From the NCBI GenBank assembly GCA_027858745.1, contig JAQICB010000134.1:1-55629 (forward strand): 55,629 nt of DNA, read 5' to 3'. Below the pieces are notes generated by a model. The model was given only the letters and a program-made list of their open reading frames with translations, made no database searches and was not told the origin of the DNA. Positions 13,312-13,571 of the stretch are shown one piece after another. This stretch comes from Bacteroidales bacterium. Its GTDB lineage: Bacteria > Bacteroidota > Bacteroidia > Bacteroidales > UBA1715. The position numbers were made by a program, and so were the translations under genes. Position 1 is the first letter of the stretch; every line of letters begins with the position of its first letter.

Positions 13312-13319
13312 TATATTTG
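13312..13319 (+). promoter_or_regulatory. Possible promoter of the candidate RNA (-7 box TATATTTG)
   Basis: TATATTTG followed by T fits TAnnTTTG and sits about 100 nt after the response-regulator stop. An alternative start further down is suggested by TTGACA at 13364-13369 followed by TATTAC 17 nt later, a sigma70-like layout unusual for this phylum. Which is used cannot be decided by eye. Confidence 0.45.
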
Positions 13320-13334
13320 TTCTATAAATAATTC

Positions 13335-13361
13335 ATATTGTTGAGAGCAACAATATTTTTT
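13335..13361 (+). terminator. Hairpin with T6 tail (terminator or attenuator)
   Basis: ATATTGTTG (13335-13343) pairs perfectly with CAACAATAT (13348-13356) around loop AGAG, followed by a T run to 13361. It could terminate the two-component operon. If transcription starts at the 13312 box, it would instead act as an attenuator in the first 40 nt of the new RNA. Confidence 0.65.
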
Positions 13362-13397
13362 GATTGACATACTATCATTTTAATGATATTACAATAC

Positions 13398-13543
13398 ACA
13401 GGCAGCCTGGTCTTCTCTTTTTTTCATGGTGTTGCGGCTTTTTCATGATTGGTTATGTGGTGTTTGAGGTTTAAGGTAAGGTAGGTTGTTTTAGTTTCTT
13501 CTTCTCAGGTTGCCTGTAACCTACTTCCTTACCTCTTTTTTTT
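13398..13543 (+). ncRNA. Candidate structured small RNA with possible pseudoknotted terminator
   Basis: No ORF fits this stretch, yet it has dense complementarity. Arm A ACAGGCAGCCTG (13398-13409) pairs with A' CAGGTTGCCTGT (13506-13517) over 12 positions with one G-U. Arm B AGGTAAGGTAGGTT (13474-13487) pairs with B' (13518-13523 plus 13527-13534, three bases bulged), and B' is followed by T8. The order A-B-A'-B' is pseudoknotted, with A' and B' directly adjacent. Each of A and A' is also nearly self-palindromic (CAGG-nnn-CCTG), so two small hairpins are an alternative. The 5' end could be near 13325 or 13398. I recognise no known RNA family. Confidence 0.55.
13474..13543 (+). terminator. Intrinsic terminator of the candidate RNA
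   Basis: Stem AGGTAAGG+TAGGTT with AACCTA..CCTTACCT (14 pairs, CTT bulge at 13524-13526) encloses a 30-nt loop and is followed by eight T at 13536-13543. It is GC-richer than its surroundings. Confidence 0.7.
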
Positions 13544-13563
13544 ACATATATCAATTATATTTT

Positions 13564-13571
13564 TATCTTTG
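13564..13571 (+). promoter_or_regulatory. -7 box of the PASTA - T9SS cargo - RSH operon
   Basis: TATCTTTG followed by C matches TAnnTTTG and lies 20 nt after the terminator of the candidate RNA and 32 nt before the ATG at 13604. It marks the start of a new transcription unit. Confidence 0.65.

Follow-up and report, generated by a model that had tools for sequence, protein, structure and literature searches.

Evidence for a structured RNA family, with a predicted pseudoknot through its terminator, in one family of uncultured Bacteroidales

Positions 13312-13543 of the window, a 55,629-nucleotide contig of a Bacteroidales bacterium analysed over its full length, hold no open reading frame of at least 80 amino acids, and the question they raise is what such a stretch encodes. 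A preliminary description, made from the letters alone, reported a promoter-like box, a 12-position complementarity, a terminator stem and a T8 tail, and proposed that the two helices interleave as an A-B-A'-B' pseudoknot in a small RNA. All of these elements, and the lack of an ORF, are present at the positions it gave (Table 1). The box TATATTTG matches TAnnTTTG, which we take to be a promoter element of Bacteroidota. Helix A to the end of the U-run spans 146 nt (13398-13543), and U-runs are found at the ends of the orthologues too.

Table 1. Features of the RNA locus in the window
Feature	Position	Strand	Basis and remarks
Bacteroidota -7 box TATATTTG (TAnnTTTG)	13312..13319	+	Read in sequence; putative transcript start near 13326
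Helix A, 5' strand, ACAGGCAGCCTG	13398..13409	+	Pairs 13506-13517; covariation
Ultraconserved 64-nt core	13408..13471	+	64/64 identical in G000, G001, G006, G008 (g1, g3); G002 98%
Helix C, 5' strand UCAUG	13424..13428	+	Pairs CAUGA 13444-13448; 14/14 distinct rows paired
Helix C, 3' strand CAUGA	13444..13448	+	Pairs UCAUG 13424-13428
C-free unpaired element UUGGUUAUGUGGUGUUU	13449..13465	+	Same letters in 12/12 orthologues, L019 and L002
Helix B, 5' strand	13474..13487	+	Pairs 13518-13534/5; other register from 13466; AGGUA invariant in 7 aligned RNAs
Helix A, 3' strand (A'), CAGGTTGCCTGT	13506..13517	+	Pairs 13398-13409; covariation
Helix B, 3' strand (B'), terminator stem	13518..13535	+	Pairs 13474-13487, 3-nt bulge; in 5/12 orthologues (g1, g2, g4) and two paralogues
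U8 run (T8 in DNA), intrinsic terminator tail	13536..13543	+	Read in sequence

Folding the single sequence gave z-scores of -0.97 and -1.14 relative to shuffles, which is unremarkable, and the reverse strand of a slightly shorter stretch scored better than the forward strand (z -2.68 against its own shuffles). By itself the window sequence is therefore not decisive, and it is the homologues that settle the RNA reading. The preliminary description recognised no known RNA class, in agreement with Rfam 15: a scan of the whole window returned three tRNAs only, the stretch itself matched rli34 (E 7.5) and mir-196 (E 2) far under cut-off, and no family exceeded its gathering cut-off in six loci with homologues. 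6S RNA, a long hairpin with a central bubble, was thus not matched in the window or in the stretch.

Homologues within the family

Our sample comprised 14 genomes of the window's family in four genera, g1 to g4, the window's genus being g1 and its own genome G000. Homologues were matched at E<=0.001 in 12 of the 14 and in all four genera. No copy was detectable in G005 or G009 by DNA search or with model R1; G005, an assembly of 440 contigs, lacks even a match to the PASTA-type gene that lies downstream of the RNA elsewhere, and in G009 that gene is present, yet the RNA match is absent from the locus. A search of 60 relatives returned the same 12 genomes; the 46 that belong to other families of the order gave no match.

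Wider searches yielded no convincing outside member. A pattern allowing at most two mismatches matched seven of 393 genomes of the order, namely six of the family and G279 (two mismatches); the reversed control pattern matched one. Model R2, applied with stricter filters to 295 genomes, recovered four family genomes and G276 (E 0.0115, 54% G+C), which we judged unconvincing; it also matched, weakly, the partial copies described below and L048, a place that is not a copy, as well as four additional places in the window with E values from 0.033 to 2.3. A pattern scan of the whole collection returned 12 stretches, all from Bacteroidales or Bacteroidetes metagenome-assembled genomes (MAGs), and several of the matching MAG names refer to the rumen, reticulum, rectum or faeces of herbivores. 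These stretches come mostly from the same genomes as the family set and so were not taken as additional evidence. Phages and plasmids gave no blastn match, and two patterns run against viral contigs matched zero and one stretch, the latter within an ORF of 443 amino acids. With the DNA query the window's own genome has three matches (E<=0.001), and with model R1 (E<=1) it has two; among the 14 genomes R1 gave at most four matches per genome at that threshold. In these searches the RNA is confined to a single family of uncultured Bacteroidales, where genomes that have it carry one to several copies.

Three helices and a conserved core

The core is made of fixed letters, in contrast to the helices, in which it is mainly the pairing that is preserved. 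The protein of the adjacent PASTA-type gene is only 41-47% identical between the window's genome and six g2 and g3 genomes, one of these sequences being cut short. Near letter-for-letter retention of the core across related genera makes a useful RNA very probable. The unpaired element is replaced by UGGUUUUGUGGUGUUA in two diverged paralogues of G004. A further element, before helix A, is kept in the g2 and g3 orthologues as TTCATTGAG/TACATTGAG, and its G004 version is TTCATTAGAAT.

Helix A in the window consists of 11 Watson-Crick pairs and one G-U over its 12 positions, with a duplex energy of about -23.8 kcal/mol (RNAduplex). The preliminary description had named covariation among homologues as the check on its model. 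In a MAFFT alignment of the 12 orthologues the covariation score was 0.317 against 0.175 +/- 0.026 for shuffles, none of 500 being as high, and sliding the partner strand by 1-3 columns gave at most 0.061. In the same alignment 96.5% of cells are paired and four of the 12 pairs have double changes, a count that 37 of 500 shuffles also attain; all 500 attain the observed number of pair types. When L002, L019 and the two diverged G004 copies are added, double changes extend to 10 of the 12 pairs. Since MAFFT misplaced A' in the two diverged paralogues, we turned for these rows to alignment A5, a covariance-model alignment that is fitted to helix A and hence favours it. Over its 14 distinct rows, helices A and C together show double changes in 11 of 17 pairs and a covariation score reached by none of 500 shuffles, with a pair-type count equalled by 238 of 500; arm-to-arm pairing of helix A holds in 95.1% of cells. 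The MAFFT alignment of the 12 orthologues, however, agrees with it in direction.

Helix C lies inside the core and was not part of the preliminary description. It shows one compensatory change, from UCAUG/CAUGA to UUAUG/CAUAA, seen in L168 and L173; the remaining four pairs are invariant. The change rests on these two paralogues of the same genome and probably reflects a single event.

For helix B the score was the duplex energy and not a column measure; in alignments A2 and A6 its 3' strands are out of register. Its energy in the window lies between -18.5 and -21.2 kcal/mol depending on the stretch supplied to RNAduplex. Five RNAs that have helix B were tested, and in each the duplex was better than every one of 500 shuffles of the 60-nt downstream stretch, with a margin over the best shuffle of only 0.5 kcal/mol for the window's own helix. 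A B/B' stem followed by a U-run is present in the orthologues of G000, G001, G002, G007 and G004 and in the two diverged paralogues, and in four of these RNAs (two g4 orthologues and the two paralogues) B is re-paired with letters unlike those of the window. The paralogues, both on contig G004:C47, have the complete A-B-A'-B' order; the model that found them described helix A and the intervening letters without B', so B' was not selected for by the search. By eye, B' was not seen in any of the seven g3 orthologues, and in the shuffle test of one of them (G006) 288 of 500 shuffles were as good. In g3 the U-run follows A' directly, and a weak local stem (-8.0, shuffle-test energy) may replace B. 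Three genera thus support the pseudoknot, and one does without it. The comparison of homologues, through covariation in helix A and re-pairing in helix B, supports the pseudoknotted structure first proposed from the window, for an RNA whose transcription is predicted.

Genomic setting, promoters and further copies

It had been suggested that the RNA might be a target or partner of the response regulator encoded next to it. In all seven g3 loci the upstream gene is not two-component but of BadF type, an assignment based on PF01869 just over cut-off in L028 and on likeness in the rest; in L032 only the end of the gene lies within the locus, and it was named by likeness to L024. For the window's relative of this gene, Pfam gave nothing at 0.001. 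In the window's genus a HisKA_3 kinase and a response regulator with a GerE domain form a two-component operon that stands between. This operon borders the RNA in both g1 genomes only and is absent from the seven g3 loci. The g2 genome G002 has a contig end that leaves the upstream neighbour unreadable, and beside the RNA in the two g4 loci, which lie in unrelated places, no two-component gene was recognised; in one of them (L026) the ORF behind the RNA has no Pfam match. Downstream, a PASTA-type ORF follows in eight g1-g3 loci, with PF03793 in the window and L025. As the neighbours differ among genera, the link to the response regulator looks like a positional accident, and since the RNA stays constant while they change, the arrangement also argues against a cis-acting leader.

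Ten of the 12 orthologues have a TAnnTTTG box at 93-117 nt before the core, and G002 has one at -167; the background of this motif in the window is 0.56-0.88 per kb. In G001 no such box occurs within 170 nt upstream of the core, and an additional receiver-domain ORF (PF00072; L035, 7339-7701) is inserted between the two-component operon and the RNA. Because the box was not found and this response-regulator-like ORF stops 56 nt short of the core, the RNA in G001 could be the tail of another transcript.

Nine further copies were found. Two of them, L019 in G003 and L002 in the window's own genome, keep most of the core, set in stems of other sequence; L003, L020, L022, L023 and L101 keep its first half only. 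In six of the nine (L002, L003, L019, L020, L168 and L173) a closing stem of other sequence leads into a T-rich run; TAnnTTTG stands 20-62 nt before the stem in five of the six, L173 being the one without a box. The remaining three (L022, L023 and L101) have neither box nor U-run. Judged by their sequence signals, the copies with boxes and terminators have the look of separate small RNA genes that would be transcribed on their own.

Two observations concern the surroundings of these copies. A 1.5-kb region at L090 (G001:C15, 884-2400) contains several repeated stretches about 100-120 nt in length, two of which (1137-1239 and 1473-1575) carry ATGGTGTTGCGGCTTTTTT; L101, on G001:C58, is a copy related to these repeats, and possibly an L090 repeat took up half of the core. 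Separately, the third G004 copy (L175, G004:C47, 16565-16891) begins about 10 nt after a short ORF, HTH-like on visual inspection and lacking a Pfam match.

Candidate functions and known systems

The locus almost certainly specifies a real family of structured RNAs. What the RNA does is less clear, and we give about an even chance to a separate, trans-acting small regulatory RNA working as follows. An RNA of approximately 145-220 nt would be transcribed from its own Bacteroidota-type promoter box and end at an intrinsic terminator. Closing helix A and hairpin C would keep a long, C-poor core open and, in g1, g2 and g4, the terminator stem B would be threaded through helix A as a pseudoknot that would set the RNA's end, its stability or the exposure of the core. 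The exposed core, that is UUGGUUAUGUGGUGUUU together with the hairpin C loop GUGUUGCGGCUUUUU, would then be offered in trans, the partner being either several mRNAs, through short-seed pairing, which we rank first, or an RNA-binding protein, which we rank second.

Pairing with gene starts was examined. The core carries UUUUUCAUG twice, the complement of AUGAAAAA. Compared with the 14 genomes, the core gave 77 matches at E<=10, of which 19 are members or copies; 32 places were read, one of them the copy L062, and L056 was left out of the table of these places. Our script flagged seven antisense matches on gene starts (L046, L048, L049, L052, L063, L069 and L072), and an eighth, L021, was seen by eye; there are also seven sense-strand flags at gene starts, mostly on short ORFs within longer genes. 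No antisense match recurs across genera among the places read. Pairing of the whole core with gene starts was equalled by shuffled cores in 5 of 60 cases in G000 and 26 of 60 in G003, in a sample of 224 and 240 genes from two genomes with starts taken mechanically as first ATGs, from which a few targets could escape. Among five segments tested in two genomes, the hairpin C loop stands out in its ten best scores (1/50 and 3/50 shuffles) but not in its mean (14/50 and 34/50), and for the AGGUAAGGUAGG segment 49 of 50 shuffles were at least as good in both genomes. RNAduplex energies at gene starts were set aside, gene interiors having scored lower than starts, probably through composition. We rejected antisense pairing to start codons as the main reading: the best candidate, L021, has a protein match in only two of the 14 genomes, its own included, and the bulk tests gave no clear enrichment. 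The CAUG motif is better explained by helix C than by start-codon pairing, because the paralogues change it to UUAUG/CAUAA. One place merits separate record. In L046 (G009:C83, about 1520-1565) the leader of a gene beginning MKKTLIFTSIF has two tandem ACACATAACCAAAT, nearly complementary to UUGGUUAUGUGGUGUU of the RNA; G009 is a genome with no detectable copy of the RNA.

Protein binding is a possible but clearly more doubtful account, under which an RRM-1 (RbpB-like) protein, or some other one, would bind at the conserved C-poor core, the RNA would serve as decoy, store or scaffold, and B' would matter to the partnership. RRM-1 protein RbpB of Bacteroides thetaiotaomicron is described, in passages of PMC11697453, as binding multicopy sRNAs, preferentially in single-stranded regions, and fixed letters in an unpaired stretch fit a constant protein site. 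Proteins with an RRM_1 domain occur in 7 of the 14 family genomes (2/2 of g1, 2/2 of g2, 3/3 of g4 and 0/7 of g3), a split that parallels B', present in g1, g2 and g4 and not seen in g3. This parallel is one coincidence on one branch and is suggestive only, as a link is not demonstrable from one shared difference. The g3 genomes keep the core unaltered in the absence of RRM proteins, so it cannot depend on them, and G009 and G005 have RRM proteins without detectable RNA. A more elaborate version we consider improbable: the RNA would represent a new class whose functional fold incorporates the intrinsic terminator and which is made and kept along with an RRM-1 protein, B' and RRM having been lost together on the g3 branch and the core continuing in a second, RRM-independent role.

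Readings that dispense with a trans-acting RNA fare worse. That the locus is only a terminator, attenuator or 5' leader for its neighbours would account for the intrinsic terminator signal at its end and for the PASTA gene downstream in the eight g1-g3 loci where one was read as an ORF. In g4 and around the copies the core is kept beside other neighbours, the window's PASTA gene has its own box, TATCTTTG, at 13564-13571 after the terminator, and a terminator has no need of a frozen 64-nt core; we consider this very unlikely. It is highly improbable that the conserved entity is a short peptide, MVLRLFHDWLCGV (ATG at 13426, stop TGA at 13465-13467), alone or in a dual-function RNA. Its ORF is intact in the g1-g3 orthologues, where the sole internal difference, CGG/CGA, is synonymous, and L101 has two synonymous changes in the first six codons (translated by eye). 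Against this, the frame is broken in L002 although the second half of the DNA is kept, p2/p3 diverge, and the peptide ends differently in g4 and in the partial copies. Synonymous sites elsewhere show no change, and the conserved letters reach into the pyrimidine tract before the ATG and beyond the stop. A U-run before an ATG is also a poor start context in Bacteroidota. The suggestion that the locus is a DNA element, either a duplicated protein-binding palindrome or a mobile repeat, draws on the palindromic look of both helix A arms in the window (CAGG-nnn-CCTG) and on the recurrence of partial copies, two of them close together in G001. The preliminary description had raised this palindrome, or local hairpins, as a caveat, which the homologues do not sustain: self-complementarity of both arms is restricted to two of the 16 aligned RNAs, those from the window's genus. 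Given also the strand-specific U-run and promoter box, the covarying helices, and the results for phages, plasmids and viral contigs, a DNA element is extremely unlikely.

A separate, trans-acting RNA with an open core remains our preferred reading. To our knowledge, most of the RNA regulators studied in depth are absent from Bacteroidota, and structures are known for few small RNAs of this phylum. A pseudoknotted RNA that covaries, is conserved nearly letter for letter and has diverged paralogues is a defined object for study, and the g3 genomes offer a natural variant lacking both helix B and RRM proteins. Were the partner an RRM-1 protein, the role of such proteins outside Bacteroides would become directly testable.

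Intrinsic terminators, and small RNAs that end in one, have a stem and a U-run at the 3' end, as does the RNA described here. Unlike in an ordinary terminator, the 5' strand of its stem lies inside a loop closed by a second helix, so that terminator and body interlock; g3 departs in another way, with closing helix A itself preceding the U-run. Among characterised systems the nearest are FopS and GibS, which, as passages of PMC11697453 describe them, are likewise Bacteroidota RNAs, paralogous with one common conserved stretch and canonical promoters, in a phylum with RRM-1 proteins. According to the same passages, the FopS sRNAs of B. thetaiotaomicron are about 65-70 nt long, number 12-15 in a genome and base-pair at translation starts of the susC type. 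The window RNA differs in its length of about 145-220 nt, in the pseudoknot through its terminator and in the smaller number of copies found (at most four per genome). Its start-site pairing shows no clear enrichment above shuffles over 224 and 240 genes, a sample in which a few targets could be missed. The comparison covers length, copy number and pairing as described for FopS (PMC11697453). Candidate structured RNAs of Bacteroidetes (PMC8040213, PMC2864571) are of the same kind, that is, conserved, structured intergenic RNAs without an assigned function; no Rfam 15 model matches the window RNA, and the comparison with these candidates is at the level of Rfam. In the titles and abstract openings of the papers found, and in passages of PMC11697453 and PMC8040213, there was no description of this RNA. 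Within that coverage it is a new, uncatalogued RNA family of a known general kind, in which the interlocking of terminator and body is unusual.
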